Source: Halorussus rarus (GTDB lineage Archaea > Halobacteriota > Halobacteria > Halobacteriales > Haladaptataceae). Taken from it: a stretch of DNA of 64,000 nt. The translations under genes and the position numbers were made by a program. The stretch's first letter is position 1; the number at the start of each line of letters is the position of its first letter. Shown in pieces: positions 5,567 to 44,473 of this stretch. Under the pieces are notes generated by a model. It was not told the DNA's origin, searched no databases, and saw only the letters and a list, made by a program, of their open reading frames with translations. The stretch spans positions 248,001-312,000 of the forward strand of contig NZ_QPMJ01000002.1 in assembly GCF_003369835.1 (NCBI RefSeq). The letters are read 5' to 3'.

Positions 5567-6432
5567 GCGTTCTAGTCGATTCGGACACCAGAGTCGTCGT
5601 ACAGGGCATCACCGGCGGGGAGGGCAAGTTCCACGCCGAGCAGATGATGGAGTACGGCACCAACGTCGTCGCCGGCGCGGTGCCGGGCAAGGGCGGCCAG
5701 GAGGTCGCCGGCGTCCCGGTGTACGACACCGTCGACGAGGCCGCCCGCGAGGAGGACGCCGACGCCTCGGTCGTCTTCGTCCCGCCCGCGTTCGCGGCCG
5801 ACGCCGTCTTCGAGGCGCTGGACGCGCCGCTCGACCTCGTGGTCGCCATCACCGAGGGCATCCCCGCCCAGGACATGAGCAAGGTGTACAAGCGCCTGGG
5901 CGAGGTCGACACCCGTCTCATCGGGCCGAACTGCCCGGGCATCATCACTCCCGGCGAGTCGAAGCTCGGCATCCTGCCCGGCAACATCTTCGAGTCGGGC
6001 GACGTGGGCCTGGTCTCGCGGTCGGGCACCCTCACCTATCAGGTCGTCGACAACCTCACCTCGCGGGGCGTCGGCCAGACCACCGCCATCGGCATCGGCG
6101 GCGACCCCATCATCGGCACCGACTTCACCGACGCGCTCGAGCTGTTCGAGAACGACCCTGACACGAAGGCGGTCGTGATGTGCGGCGAGATCGGCGGCGA
6201 GGACGAGGAGGAGGCCGCCCGGTTCATCGCCGAGAACATGGACACGCCGGTCGCGGGCTTCATCGCGGGCCGGACCGCGCCGGAGGGCAAGCGCATGGGC
6301 CACGCCGGCGCCATCGTCTCGGGTAGCGGCACCGGCACCGCCGAGAGCAAGATCAACGCGCTCAACGACGCGGGCGTCCCGGTCGGCGACACCCCCAACG
6401 AGGTCGCCGACCACATCGAGGACTTCCTGTAG
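5563..6432 (+). CDS. sucD: Succinyl-CoA synthetase (ADP-forming) alpha subunit
   Basis: This 289-residue protein has a CoA-binding Rossmann fold at the N terminus ([22 protein letters not shown]), the [10 protein letters not shown] and [20 protein letters not shown] blocks, and a C-terminal ligase domain. [17 protein letters not shown] carries the active-site histidine that is phosphorylated in catalysis. It forms the alpha/beta enzyme with the overlapping sucC product. Length and motif order match the family with no odd features. It is the last gene of a two-gene operon; 204 non-coding bases follow. Confidence 0.97.
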
Positions 6433-6636
6433 CGCGACCGCGCCCGGTCCCCCGTTCTGCCGGGGGCGTCCGGGTTCTCCGTCCCGGTCCGGGCGCTCAG
6501 TTCTGCCGTTTCGCAACCCCGTCAGGGTCTCTTTCCTGACTCGGTACCCCCGTCGCTGCTACCGTTTAGTTCTTCGCGTCGGGGCACTCGCGGACACGGG
6601 CACAGCCCTTAGGTGCGCCACGCCCCAATCGGACGT

Positions 6637-6879
6637 ATGGAAGCACCAACTCCGCTGGAGTCCGCGGCGGACGAACGAGAGGACGTCACCATCGCTCGAC
6701 GCGGGTACGAGGGGGAGAACGTCCTCGTCGTCGACTTCGGCCCCGGCGTCGAGGCCAAACTGGACGTCGTGGGCGAGACCGGCATCGTCGTCGCCGGCGA
6801 CCGCCAGTTCGAGTTCGAGATGCCCGAGGACGCCACCGACGTCTCCACCAACGCCGGGATGCTCATCATCCGGGAGTAG
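6637..6879 (+). CDS. Small beta-rich haloarchaeal protein (DUF7127/Hsp20-like)
   Basis: This 80-residue acidic protein is made almost entirely of alternating short strands (VTIARRGYEGENVLVVDFGP, AKLDVVGETGIVVAGDRQFEFEMPED, GMLIIRE). The order suggests a small beta sandwich reminiscent of the Hsp20/alpha-crystallin fold, without the full ACD signature. It matches a conserved short haloarchaeal family I associate with DUF7127; that name is from memory and uncertain. I chose the ATG at 6637 over one eight codons earlier because the family begins with the acidic stretch. It stands alone, convergent with the MscS-like gene. Confidence 0.72.
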   Translation: MEAPTPLESAADEREDVTIARRGYEGENVLVVDFGPGVEAKLDVVGETGIVVAGDRQFEFEMPEDATDVSTNAGMLIIRE

Positions 6880-6928
6880 CGTCGGCCGGGCCGTTCTACC
6901 GAGCGAGTCCGATTTTTCCGCCGAGGCG

Positions 6929-7609
6929 TCACCCGTCAGTCGTCGTACCGTCGGTCGGTTCCGACTCGTCGATCGTTCCAGTACCGTCAGCGGTCGCCGA
7001 ACCGTCGACCGGAGGCGATCCGGAGTCGCCAGCCGTCGGCTCGGAATCACCGGCCGGCGACCCCGCCCGCGCCTTCTTCGTCCAGCGCTCCTCGACCAGG
7101 CTGTTGCCCAGGACCAGCGTGTCGCCGCCGTCGACCGCCAGTCTGGTCTTCCGGAGCCCGATCTCGCGGACCACGCCGGTCTCGTCGGCGGTGACCACCG
7201 CGTCGCCGGGTTCGAAGTCGGGGTCCCGCAGGAGGTAGACGCCCGAGACCGTGTCGGCGATCATGTCCGAGAGCGCGTAGCTCACCCCGAGCGCGACGAA
7301 CCCCGTGGCGGTCCCGAGGCTGGCGGCGACCTCGCCCATGCCGAGGATCTTCAGGAGCGCGAGCGCCGCGCCGAACCACATGAAGACGCCGGCGACCGCG
7401 GCGAACAGGTCGGCGACGAGTTCGTCGGCGTAGACGCGGTCGAGCGCCGACCGGACCAGCGACAGCGCGACCCTGATGCCGGCGTAGGCCACGACGAAGA
7501 ACAGGAGCGCCGTGACGAACGTCGGAATCGCGTCGACGAACCCGGCCCGGAGTTCCGCGAGCGACTCCGCGACGATTCCCCCGAACCCTCCGCCCTGTGA
7601 GACGTTCAT
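6929..7609 (-). CDS. MscS-family mechanosensitive channel (small type)
   Basis: This 226-residue protein has three hydrophobic segments (about residues 27-52, 65-92, 98-120) followed by a beta domain: LLRDPDFEPGDAVVTADETGVVREIGLRKTRL and LVLGNSLVEERW (about 125-175). This is the MscS pore-lining helix and beta-domain arrangement without the large C-terminal cage. The last 45 residues are a disordered Thr/Ser/Asp/Gly tail. Such channels release solutes on osmotic downshock. The ATG at 7609 starts at the domain edge; an earlier in-frame ATG would add an Arg-rich leader. It is a single gene. Confidence 0.88.
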   Translation of the reverse strand: MNVSQGGGFGGIVAESLAELRAGFVDAIPTFVTALLFFVVAYAGIRVALSLVRSALDRVYADELVADLFAAVAGVFMWFGAALALLKILGMGEVAASLGTATGFVALGVSYALSDMIADTVSGVYLLRDPDFEPGDAVVTADETGVVREIGLRKTRLAVDGGDTLVLGNSLVEERWTKKARAGSPAGDSEPTAGDSGSPPVDGSATADGTGTIDESEPTDGTTTDG

Positions 7610-41097: not shown

Positions 41098-42774
41098 TCA
41101 GTGGTCTGCCTCGTGGGGATTCAGCTCGGTCCCGTAGTTCGCGGCGTGGTCCTCGTAGTCGATGAACCGCGGAGCGTCCGGGTCGAAGGGTCGCTCCAGC
41201 GACTCGAACGCCTTCTTCTTGTCCCAGTTCTGGAGCCCGCCGACCGCGCTCCGGTCCTCGAGGTCGTGGTAGTCGAGGTCCGGTTCGGTCAGTTCCCACG
41301 CCTCCATGCCGGTCTCGGTCCGGACGATGACCGACGAGTACTCGTCGGAGCTGCCGACCGAACCGACGGTGAGGTCGGCGCAGTAGCCCGTGAAGTCGGC
41401 GCACTCGTCGCAGCCCTTCAGCGCGGCGTCGTGGAAGTGCTCGATGTCCTCGGCCAGCCGGAGGTCGCCGTCGCGGTCGTAGACTCGCATCTCGCCATCG
41501 AGCACGTCGAGCTTGCCGATGTCCTCGGGCTGGATGTCGCGCTTCTCCGCCAACTGGTCGCCGATAAGCCGCCGGTAGTTGAAGTTCTTCGTGCACATCA
41601 GCGCGACGGTGTAGTCGACGGCCCGGGCCATCGCGTTCTGGGACCCGTACTCCCACTCGAAGTCCTGCAGGGCTCGAATCCCCTCGATCTCGCAGGGCGT
41701 CCCCACGAGCGCCAGGCTGAGGTCCTCGGGGTCCCTGACGGGCAACTTCTCCTCCCACTGCGCGAGGTCGAGATCCCCCAGCGCCATCGTCTGGTTGTAG
41801 AAGCTCCCGGCGTTCGCGACCAGCCCCTCGCGGGTGGTCGCGAGGAAGCTCTCGGCCTTCCAGGGCTCCTCGTCGGATTCCGTGGCGACGAGCGCGCCGT
41901 CGATCTCGCCGGCGTCGAGCAGGTGGCACAGGACCGACGTGACCACGCCGCCGTCCTGGGCGCCCTCGCGCCAGTCGTCGGTCACCCGCGCGGAGAACTC
42001 CGTGATGGGGTCTCCCGCGCCCTTCACGTTGTCCTCGCCGCCGGTGATTTTCCACTGGCGCTCGTACCGCAGCCCGCCCCGCGGGCAGAAGTCCCAGCAC
42101 AGCGAGCAGCCGGTGCACATCTTCACCAGCTCCGGGAGGTCGTCGTCGCCGATGCCGATGGAGTCGGAAGGACAGGCGGCCACGCAGGTCCCGCACTGGA
42201 TGCACCGGTCCTCCTCGATGACCGCCTCGTCGAGCTCCATGAACCAGGTCTTGTCGTCGGGCGTCTCGATGTCGTTCATCTCCGCCCGGATGCCGTACCC
42301 GGGCGTGTCGAGGTCCGCCCCCTCGGGCATCCCGACGCGCTCGACCGGGTCGCCGTCGTCGACGTCCTGGCTCTCGCCCGCGGCGGGCGTCGTGAACTCG
42401 ACGTCGCCGAGGTTCCCGTCCGCGTCGACGTTCGCGGGCGTCGTCCCGCCGTCAGAGGCAAGCTCTGACGAGCCTTCGTTCACTTCGCTCGCGAAGACGC
42501 CGTCTGCCACTGGCTCGGCCGCCGACTCGGGTTCGGGGTTCGCGTCAGATTCCGCCTCCGTGCCGACCGCGTAGGGACGCGACTCGTCGGCTGGCCCGAT
42601 CTGGTCGCCCGGAATCGTCCCGTGTTCGGACGCCGGCCGGTGGGTCCGGACGCCCTCGGCGCGTGGGACCGTTCGCTCGGCGTCGGCATCCGTATCGACG
42701 TCAGGAACGCCGGGCAGCGGCTCGTCGGCCTCCGCGCCCTCCCGCTGGTCGCTCTCACCAGTCCCGTCAGTCAT
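41098..42774 (-). CDS. FrhB-like coenzyme F420 oxidoreductase with two 4Fe-4S clusters
   Basis: This 558-residue protein has an acidic disordered N terminus (1-165), a ferredoxin domain with CIQCGTCVAACP (Cys 191, 194, 197, 201) and CTGCSLCWDFCP (Cys 220, 223, 226, 230), and a C-terminal FrhB/FdhB domain (about 270-540: LSLALVGTPCEIEGIRALQDFEW, CTKNFNY, GCDECADFTGYCADLTVGSVGS). FrhB-type domains bind FAD and F420. It overlaps the siroheme reductase gene by eight bases, so the two proteins probably work as one electron pathway. Residues about 93-110 are encoded by a double hairpin. Confidence 0.9.
   Translation of the reverse strand: MTDGTGESDQREGAEADEPLPGVPDVDTDADAERTVPRAEGVRTHRPASEHGTIPGDQIGPADESRPYAVGTEAESDANPEPESAAEPVADGVFASEVNEGSSELASDGGTTPANVDADGNLGDVEFTTPAAGESQDVDDGDPVERVGMPEGADLDTPGYGIRAEMNDIETPDDKTWFMELDEAVIEEDRCIQCGTCVAACPSDSIGIGDDDLPELVKMCTGCSLCWDFCPRGGLRYERQWKITGGEDNVKGAGDPITEFSARVTDDWREGAQDGGVVTSVLCHLLDAGEIDGALVATESDEEPWKAESFLATTREGLVANAGSFYNQTMALGDLDLAQWEEKLPVRDPEDLSLALVGTPCEIEGIRALQDFEWEYGSQNAMARAVDYTVALMCTKNFNYRRLIGDQLAEKRDIQPEDIGKLDVLDGEMRVYDRDGDLRLAEDIEHFHDAALKGCDECADFTGYCADLTVGSVGSSDEYSSVIVRTETGMEAWELTEPDLDYHDLEDRSAVGGLQNWDKKKAFESLERPFDPDAPRFIDYEDHAANYGTELNPHEADH
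42450..42496. repeat. In-frame double hairpin in the FrhB-like gene
   Basis: The first hairpin has arms CGTCAGAG and CTCTGACG with loop GCAAG (42450-42470). The second (42474-42496) has arms CTTCG and CGAAG around a 13-base loop that contains TCACTTCGCTC, close to the reverse complement of the 11-base loop in the LarA-type gene. They encode VFASEVNEGSSELASDGG in a disordered region. Confidence 0.7.
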
Positions 42775-44473
42775 CTGTCGCCACTCCCTTCGAAACGGGG
42801 GCGTCGGCCCCGCGCATGACGGTCCTGAGCCGGTCGTTGTCGACCCGGCGGGTCCACTCGTAGAAGCGCTCACCGTCGGTTCGCTCCTCGGCATAGACCC
42901 CGAACAGTTCCTCGAGCGCCGGAATCACGGCGTCGGCCGGGACCGCGGTCTCGACCCAGTCGAGGAACGCGTTGTCGGTCCCGAGGCTCCCGCCGAGGCC
43001 GAAGTCCATGCCCTCGACCACCGCGTCGTCCTCGCCGTTGGTGCTGTCCGCCGCGTCCTCGACCTTGACCGTCTCGCCCCGGAAGCCGATGTCGGCGATC
43101 TGGGGCTGGGCGCACGAGGCCGAGCAGCCCGACATGTGCATCCGGACCACGTCGAGGTCCTCGGGGGTGTCGATGCGCTCGTCGAGCTCCCGGGCCCAGC
43201 GCTTGACGCGCTTCTTGGTCTCGATGATGCCGTAGTTGCAGAACTCGCTGCCGGTGCAACCGACCGCGCCCCGCGAGAAGGGGCCGGGGTCGGGCCGGTA
43301 GTCCGCGGCGAACGGTTCGTCGAGCAGGTCCGCGACGTTCTCCTCTGGGACGTGGGTGACCAGGAAGTTCTGGTCGGTCGCGAGCCTGACGGTCGTCTCG
43401 TCGGTCCCGTACTCGCGGGCGGCACGGGCCATCTCGGCGAACTCGTCGCCGCCCATCCGCCCGCCCACGACGTTGAATCCCACGTACTGTAGCCCGTCCT
43501 GCTTCTGGTCGTGGACGCCGACGTGGTCACCGGCGTACCCTTCGGTCAGGTCCCGACCCCGTGTCGGCAGGTCGACAGCGCACCGGTCGCGGACCGCCTC
43601 CTCGAAGGTGTCCGGTCCCAGCTGCTCGACCAGATACCGCATCCGACAGACGCCGCGGTTGTGGCGGTCGCCCAGCTCCTTGAACGCCTGGGCGACCGCC
43701 CGGCAGAACTCCACGGCGTCCTCGGGCGGGACGAACACGTCGAGCGGCGAGGCCATCCGCGGCCCGTCCGAGAGACCGCCGCCGACCCGGACGTGGAAGC
43801 CGTAGCAGTCGGTCCCGTCGACCGTCTTGCGGGCGGGGACGAGTCCCACGTCGTTGATCTGGGACTGGGCGCAGTCCCGGCGGCAGCCGGTGACGGTTAT
43901 CTTGAACTTCCGCGGGAGGTTGGCGTACTCGCGGTTGCCCGTGAAGAAGTCCGAGACCGCGTCGACCACGGGCTGGGCGTCGAAGCACTCGTGGTCGCTG
44001 ACGCCGGCGACCGGACAGCCCAGCACGTTCCGGGCCGAGTCGCCGCAGCCCTGGACGGTCGTCAGGCCGACCTCGTCGTAGCGGTTCCAGATGTCGGGGA
44101 CGTCCTCGATCTCGAGCCAGTGCATCTGGACGTCCTGCCGGGTGGTGACGTCGAGGAACGCGTCGCCCCACAGTTCGTTCTGGTCGGCGCCGCCGTACTC
44201 GTCGGGCGCGGTCGCGTACTCGTCGGCGACCTCGCCGACGATCTCGGCCTGCTCGGGCGTGAGCCGACCGCCGGGTACCTTGGTCCGCAGCATGAAGTAC
44301 CCGCGGTGGGTCCCGTGGGTGTACAGCCCGGCCCACTTGAGTCGCTCCCACTCGCCCTCGCCGGCCCGCGCCTCGATCTCGTCGAACGACAGCCCCTCCG
44401 CGGCGTACGTCTCGACGTCGTCGAGCACGTCGAGCGGATGCTTGCGCTGTTTCCACTGTTCGACCGTGTTCAT
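42767..44473 (-). CDS. Siroheme nitrite/sulfite reductase
   Basis: This 568-residue protein has two ferredoxin-like/siroheme repeats. It carries the cluster ligands C406, C412, C450 and C454 (C-x5-C and C-x3-C, in GCTGSEFC and SGCSASC) that bridge the 4Fe-4S centre and siroheme, and TGCRRDCAQ near 196. Six electrons reduce nitrite to ammonia or sulfite to sulfide. Motifs alone do not fix the substrate. Its neighbour is the FrhB-like protein, a plausible electron donor. ATG 44473 is chosen because the domain begins there. Confidence 0.93.
   Translation of the reverse strand: MNTVEQWKQRKHPLDVLDDVETYAAEGLSFDEIEARAGEGEWERLKWAGLYTHGTHRGYFMLRTKVPGGRLTPEQAEIVGEVADEYATAPDEYGGADQNELWGDAFLDVTTRQDVQMHWLEIEDVPDIWNRYDEVGLTTVQGCGDSARNVLGCPVAGVSDHECFDAQPVVDAVSDFFTGNREYANLPRKFKITVTGCRRDCAQSQINDVGLVPARKTVDGTDCYGFHVRVGGGLSDGPRMASPLDVFVPPEDAVEFCRAVAQAFKELGDRHNRGVCRMRYLVEQLGPDTFEEAVRDRCAVDLPTRGRDLTEGYAGDHVGVHDQKQDGLQYVGFNVVGGRMGGDEFAEMARAAREYGTDETTVRLATDQNFLVTHVPEENVADLLDEPFAADYRPDPGPFSRGAVGCTGSEFCNYGIIETKKRVKRWARELDERIDTPEDLDVVRMHMSGCSASCAQPQIADIGFRGETVKVEDAADSTNGEDDAVVEGMDFGLGGSLGTDNAFLDWVETAVPADAVIPALEELFGVYAEERTDGERFYEWTRRVDNDRLRTVMRGADAPVSKGVATDD

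Follow-up and report, generated by a model that had tools for sequence, protein, structure and literature searches.

The subject of this analysis is a pair of adjacent genes on the minus strand of a 64,000-nucleotide stretch of the Halorussus rarus genome (hereafter the window), the upstream one coding for a siroheme reductase (P0002) and the downstream one for an FrhB-like flavoprotein (P0001). The initial annotation described the two genes as overlapping by eight bases on the same strand, and the minus-strand open reading frames bear this out: the stop codon of P0002 lies at 42767-42769 and the start codon of P0001 at 42772-42774, with exactly 8 nt (ATGACTGA) in common. Homologs support the assigned starts: MN(T/S)VE is shared at the beginning of the reductase, and most of 25 loci compared have the downstream ATG at −8 or −11 relative to the reductase stop. 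A mechanical scan had given longer frames starting at GTG 44500 and ATG 42894, but these find no support among the homologs, whose own starts coincide with the shorter ones or lie close to them.

P0002 matches the Pfam family NIR_SIR with 185 bits and contains a NIR_SIR_ferr domain as well, and the four cysteines first named as siroheme-cluster ligands (C406, C412, C450, and C454) are present in its translation. Its predicted model (predicted local distance difference test, pLDDT, 90.2) superimposes on nitrite reductases and NirA with template modeling (TM) scores of 0.80-0.83, compared with 0.36 for F420-dependent sulfite reductase (Fsr) of methanogens. On the strength of this model P0002 belongs to the NirA/aSir family and not with the Dsr-type half of Fsr, and for that reason we gave up the earlier idea that the pair is a divided Fsr-like enzyme. 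P0001 agrees with its first description as an FrhB-like protein with two 4Fe-4S motifs and a C-terminal FrhB domain: it has two CxxCxxCxxxCP motifs (C191/194/197/201 and C220/223/226/230), to which FrhB_FdhB_N (78 bits) and FrhB_FdhB_C (114 bits) are both C-terminal, and it is the sole FrhB_C match in the whole genome. The N-terminal part, about 170 residues long, is acidic. Within residues 1-166 (window positions 42277-42774), a variable acidic extension is followed by a conserved motif ahead of the ferredoxin domain; residues 1-110 are probably disordered, and the segment preceding the ferredoxin domain is a possible docking segment. The coordinates of all features are collected in Table 1.

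Table 1. Position of the gene pair and its features in the window, and of the diverged relatives of the pair in their own loci.
Feature	Position	Strand	Basis or remark
aFsr-alpha (P0002), NirA/aSir-type siroheme reductase, 568 aa	42767..44473	−	Open reading frame and translation, Pfam NIR_SIR, fold match to nitrite reductase/NirA
C153, C197, C201, in the non-catalytic half of P0002	43871..44017	−	Kept or lost jointly
K189-F-K191, anion-binding lysines, the second being Asn in plant nitrite reductase and the nas group	43901..43909	−	Alignments; PMC13381448
Catalytic siroheme-[4Fe-4S] cysteines C406, C412, C450, C454	43112..43258	−	Invariant in all 174 haloarchaeal sequences
Gene overlap, 8 nt, ATGACTGA, reductase stop/FrhB-like start	42767..42774	−	Sequence; like the overlap in homologous loci
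aFsr-beta (P0001), 558 aa, FrhB-like flavoprotein of the F420H2-oxidase type, preceded at the N-terminal side by a dicluster ferredoxin domain	41098..42774	−	Open reading frame and translation, Pfam, fold match to F420 enzymes
Acidic N-terminal extension of low conservation, P0001 residues 1-110	42445..42774	−	Conservation profile, composition
Conserved segment ahead of the ferredoxin domain, P0001 residues 115-166, NV..G.L....FTxP ... TPxYxIR..M.D	42277..42432	−	Conservation; low pLDDT in the model
P0001 residues 184-233, two [4Fe-4S] ferredoxin motifs	42076..42225	−	Pfam Fer4 families, cysteines
FrhB_FdhB_N domain, with QDGG at residues 273-276 as the FAD helix motif	41779..41997	−	Pfam; conserved in alignment
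FrhB_FdhB_C domain with cluster cysteines C361, C394, C455, C458	41290..41718	−	Pfam, alignment
VGSVGS loop (470-475), S472/V473 corresponding to FrhB S209/V210 next to F420	41350..41367	−	Comparison with PMC3591093
Type B pair loci	L120 3489-7154, L122, L123, L126-L142		

About 82 genomes in a haloarchaeal sample of 292 encode a close relative of P0001, and a reductase gene lies immediately upstream on the same strand in 79 of the 80 named loci. The lone exception (L096, FrhB-like gene at 5983-7398) comes from an assembly in which a different contig (L077) has the pair intact. In a survey of 61 genomes, for which a paralogous reductase served as the query, the paired-type reductase was present in 31 of 31 genomes with a paired-type FrhB and in 0 of 30 without it (Fisher p 4e-18, not corrected for shared ancestry). 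The recurrence of the adjacent pair across Halobacteria, whose conservation had been a point to check, is far above chance. Its nearest named relative is that of Halorussus salinisoli. All six sampled Halorussus congeners (G024, G147, G162, G172, G176, and G274) lack the pair, which is therefore patchy within the genus.

By sequence, the solved structures nearest to P0001 are the F420-reducing subunit of a carbon monoxide dehydrogenase (CODH; 8riu_B), Fsr (9tn7, 7np8, and 7npa), an F420-reducing Fwd subunit (8rja), and FrhB; the best match is 8riu_B, with 148 bits by sequence and TMt 0.79 by fold. When the structure predicted for residues 110-558 (pLDDT 79.7) was searched with Foldseek, F420 enzymes came first (E 1e-28 to 1e-19), followed by the ferredoxin-fed HCAR (5dqr, E 5e-16), which the sequence search with P0001 did not detect at E 0.001. 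P0001 is thus nearest to F420 enzymes by both measures and does not group with unrelated FrhB paralogs. In a tree with FpoF, FrhB, and the N-terminal part of Fsr (Fsr-N), the haloarchaeal FrhB proteins, including a second type described below, form a clade apart from the sampled methanogen-type FrhB and Fsr-N (support 100/99), and the nearest outside group of this clade is not settled. P0001 keeps the four FrhB cluster cysteines, the flavin adenine dinucleotide (FAD) motif QDGG, and, as S472 and V473, the equivalents of S209 and V210, which sit beside F420 in FrhB (PMC3591093). The genome also encodes CofE, the F420-0:glutamate ligase (289.3 bits, cut-off 180.65), and NpdG, the F420H2:NADP oxidoreductase (255.6 bits, cut-off 149.8).

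As for the substrate, three proteins of the NirA type are encoded in the genome. One of them (L119), 43% identical to P0002, is encoded directly upstream of nasA-, nasB-, and mobA-like genes and is the obvious nitrite reductase of the genome. Another (L118 5970-7781, C2:1404969-1406777 of the same genome) is a further sulfite-type NirA, with the residues RKWK, that precedes a CbiX-like gene; NirA proteins of this type are common in haloarchaea, and we observed no FrhB neighbor for it in this genome. We compared 174 haloarchaeal sequences at three active-site positions and found Tyr, Cys, and Lys in the paired group (scored for Tyr over the 78 sequences extending to that site, for Cys over 100, and for Lys over 99) and in the L118 group, whereas all 22 members of the nas group have Phe, Gly, and Asn; in an alignment, tobacco nitrite reductase has Phe, Gly, and Asn as well. 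P0002, with Tyr51, Cys143, and Lys191, does not carry the signature of NasD and plant nitrite reductases (Asn at RKxN plus Phe and Gly). Its Tyr/Cys pair presumably corresponds to Tyr69/Cys161 of Mycobacterium tuberculosis NirA. A title cited in PMC11237513 describes the latter as a sulfite reductase in which Cys and Tyr are bonded, and the Lys/Asn difference has been discussed for Fsr and plant nitrite reductase (PMC13381448). Among the 31 genomes with the pair, seven have it as their sole siroheme reductase, and NasA is absent from six of these seven. From the residues and the gene content, sulfite appears the likelier substrate; of the "nitrite or sulfite" reduction originally suggested, the sulfite part is thus favored, and the separate NirA adjoining NasA in this genome makes nitrite less probable as the physiological substrate. 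A CysD-like protein with a phosphoadenosine phosphosulfate (PAPS)-reductase domain, tried as a marker of sulfate assimilation, occurs in all 27 genomes compared, even where no siroheme reductase is encoded, and is therefore uninformative.

We propose, with a probability of roughly 0.6, that P0001 and P0002 are the subunits of a two-subunit F420H2-dependent siroheme sulfite reductase, the haloarchaeal aFsr. The idea of such an F420-dependent pair is already published: Susanti and Mukhopadhyay proposed aFsr for haloarchaea in 2012, its alpha subunit being of the aSir type and its beta subunit resembling Fsr-N (PMC3448663). F420H2, regenerated for instance by an NADPH:F420 oxidoreductase, would reduce the FAD of the FrhB-like subunit, from which electrons would pass singly through the [4Fe-4S] cluster of that subunit and then the two clusters of the N-terminal ferredoxin domain. 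Within the complex that the two proteins would form, these would hand the electrons to the siroheme-[4Fe-4S] center of the NirA-type subunit, which would reduce sulfite to sulfide with six electrons. The choice of F420H2 as the donor, made in the initial annotation, is favored by the pairing of an F420H2-oxidase-type FrhB with a siroheme reductase in an organism with F420 enzymes, although F420 dependence itself is still an inference.

Several observations weigh against this proposal. At the turn 163-IGKGK of FrhB, whose lysines are proposed to touch the F420 phosphate, P0001 reads V-L-D-G-E-M-R, so that the lysines of the turn are not both kept. Of 112 paired homologs, 69 have K at position 428, and 24 of the 25 with E428 have R430 instead. 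K75 of the FrhB FAD loop is F325 in P0001. A full-text search for aFsr together with haloarchaea returned PMC3448663 only, and no assay of activity or F420 use was found in the literature searched. The survey of the 80 loci turned up no sulfur or nitrogen genes as recurrent neighbors of the pair, and sulfur-assimilation genes do not flank it. The presence of L118 means that the pair is not the genome's only option for sulfite, and a Lys at the position of K191 is compatible with nitrite because Fsr with Lys reduces both anions (PMC13381448). Finally, in the seventh of the genomes with the paired siroheme reductase alone (G193), NasA is present, so nitrite may be used there. The altered lysines would suit an enzyme fed by ferredoxin, either because the FrhB-like subunit has lost F420 use in the manner of HCAR, a ferredoxin-fed example of the fold that matches the P0001 model, or because cellular ferredoxin feeds the ferredoxin domain; the nitrite reductase of Haloferax mediterranei, for its part, uses a [2Fe-2S] ferredoxin (PMC2483277). 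We consider this rather improbable, as proven F420 enzymes stand well ahead of HCAR in sequence and fold, and as 8riu_B, experimentally shown to reduce F420, likewise deviates from the IGKGK and KY motifs, for which reason the changes in P0001 are no strong argument against F420.

An enzyme of the same build and donor could instead have nitrite, or both anions, as its main substrate, like the group II Fsr of anaerobic methanotrophic archaea (ANME) or the Fsr of Methanocaldococcus. F420-dependent nitrite reduction is proven in these Fsr relatives (PMC9295563, PMC13381448), the label ferredoxin-nitrite reductase is given to P0002 both by its closest NCBI model and in a public record, and G193 has NasA without a nas-type NirA. 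This seems unlikely to us, given that all sequences of the paired protein that cover the site show Tyr/Cys/Lys, that H. rarus and most of the checked paired genomes retain a separate nas-type enzyme with Phe/Gly/Asn, and that NasA is so rarely found where the pair is the sole siroheme reductase. It is also conceivable that the two proteins are merely co-transcribed and form no joint enzyme, with the FrhB-like subunit serving other acceptors, and FrhB relatives without a reductase neighbor do exist (L096, L121, and L143). The perfect co-occurrence, the near-constant adjacency with overlap, and the recurrence of these two families in another, diverged pair make this very improbable. The orphan FrhB genes without an adjacent siroheme reductase gene are located at L121 6059-7342, L143 4801-6084, and L096 5983-7398; upstream of the one in L143 is a gene for a protein resembling FAD-dependent dehydrogenases.

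Returning to the two-subunit sulfite reductase, none of the features we tested sets P0001/P0002 apart from aFsr, which has the same aSir-type siroheme subunit, the same adjacent Fsr-N homolog (FrhB plus two N-terminal [4Fe-4S] motifs), the same occurrence in Halobacteria, and the same proposed reaction. What is added here to the proposal of 2012 is the distribution of the pair, the active-site split from the nas group, the fold evidence, and a rhodanese-fused relative. Methanogen Fsr (7np8, 7npa; PMC10229431) shares the N-terminal dicluster ferredoxin followed by FrhB with FAD and one cluster, and the proposed electron path; it differs in being one chain, whereas the haloarchaeal genes are separated by a stop codon, and in its Dsr-type catalytic half with extra clusters. 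The CODH subunit 8riu_B of Ca. Ethanoperedens (PMC11493965) has the dicluster ferredoxin and F420-reductase domain of P0001, but its partner is CODH and electrons flow toward F420. Tobacco Nii3, the spinach enzyme (2akj), and M. tuberculosis NirA (1zj8) have the overall fold and catalytic cysteines of P0002 but receive electrons from ferredoxin, and the tobacco enzyme has Phe and Asn in place of Tyr51 and Lys191. We know of no FrhB partner for plant nitrite reductases or M. tuberculosis NirA. Haloarchaeal NasD resembles P0002 in its siroheme, its [4Fe-4S] cluster, and its sequence (the 43% identity given above), and differs in lying near nasA, in its active-site residues, and, in Haloferax mediterranei, in being ferredoxin-dependent (PMC2483277).

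A second, diverged pair, which we call type B, is found in many haloarchaea: an FrhB about 41-50% identical is encoded directly downstream of a protein of some 800 residues with two rhodanese domains and a NirA part. The NirA-rhodanese fusion is noted in PMC11237513, and the passages of that article consulted make no mention of an FrhB neighbor. Open frames of 1237-1349 residues for some type B hits, L128 among them, suggested a natural single-chain fusion of the type B proteins, which we rejected because TAG ATG separates the genes in L128 (G025) and L120; the genes of L133-L135 are likewise separate. The type B pair of L124 adjoins genes for a CysD/PAPS-domain protein and for siroheme synthesis, and on plasmid 2 of Natronococcus occultus (L263 2541-11134) nosZ, nosD, and a gene for an ABC transporter come immediately downstream of such a pair. 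The copper center of NosZ needs sulfide, so a supply of sulfur by the L263 pair is conceivable. Type B reductases have Lys191 in 21 of 21 sequences, Cys143 in nine, and in 20 of 21 a triad of further cysteines corresponding to C153, C197, and C201 of P0002, the remaining sequence having none of the three. In P0002, TGC197xxxC201AQ mirrors the catalytic SGC450xxxC454AQ. The triad is complete in all 99 readable sequences of the paired group, while the L118 group comprises 21 sequences with all three cysteines, 10 with none, and no mixed case, and the nas group 19, two, and one, respectively. Because the three are kept or lost together, this pattern suggests that they are joint ligands of an extra metal center, possibly Fe-S, that plant nitrite reductase lacks. 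Given the kinship of the sequences, independent losses are fewer than the sequence counts, and the comparison revealed no fourth ligand. We entertain, as a tentative and rather doubtful generalization, that haloarchaea possess F420H2-dependent sulfite reductases of two subunits in two diverged families, namely aFsr and the two-rhodanese form, which may take sulfite from a sulfurtransferase reaction, together with a second metal center at C153/C197/C201 in many NirA-type enzymes, including those of the nas group.

The neighbors of the pair in H. rarus code for an NFACT protein, a metallo-beta-lactamase-fold protein, and an Elp3-like protein, none of which is clearly linked to sulfur or nitrogen. 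Across the 80 loci, the only recurring genomic site of the pair is next to FtsY and prefoldin (42/80 and 35/80).

The proteins are currently recorded as ferredoxin--nitrite reductase and as Coenzyme F420 hydrogenase/dehydrogenase beta subunit C-terminal domain. A reductase on pHME505 of Haloferax mediterranei (L261 6954-8660, WP_004060645.1) is 77% identical to P0002, keeps all the markers, including the sulfite-type residues, and has WP_004060643.1 as its FrhB partner; judging from these residues, the name ferredoxin--nitrite reductase is probably misleading for it. Since nitrate and nitrite assimilation have been studied in this species by purification and expression, a direct test of the pair is feasible there. 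A review of 2021 stated that, to its authors' knowledge, a single F420-dependent reaction had been reported in halophilic archaea (PMC8305020), and the use of F420 in these organisms is therefore an open question for which the pair offers a conserved candidate of adjacent genes. If our proposal is right, the usual label of ferredoxin-nitrite reductase would have to be corrected, and the coupling of an F420H2 oxidase to a siroheme reductase would have arisen with two different kinds of catalytic protein.

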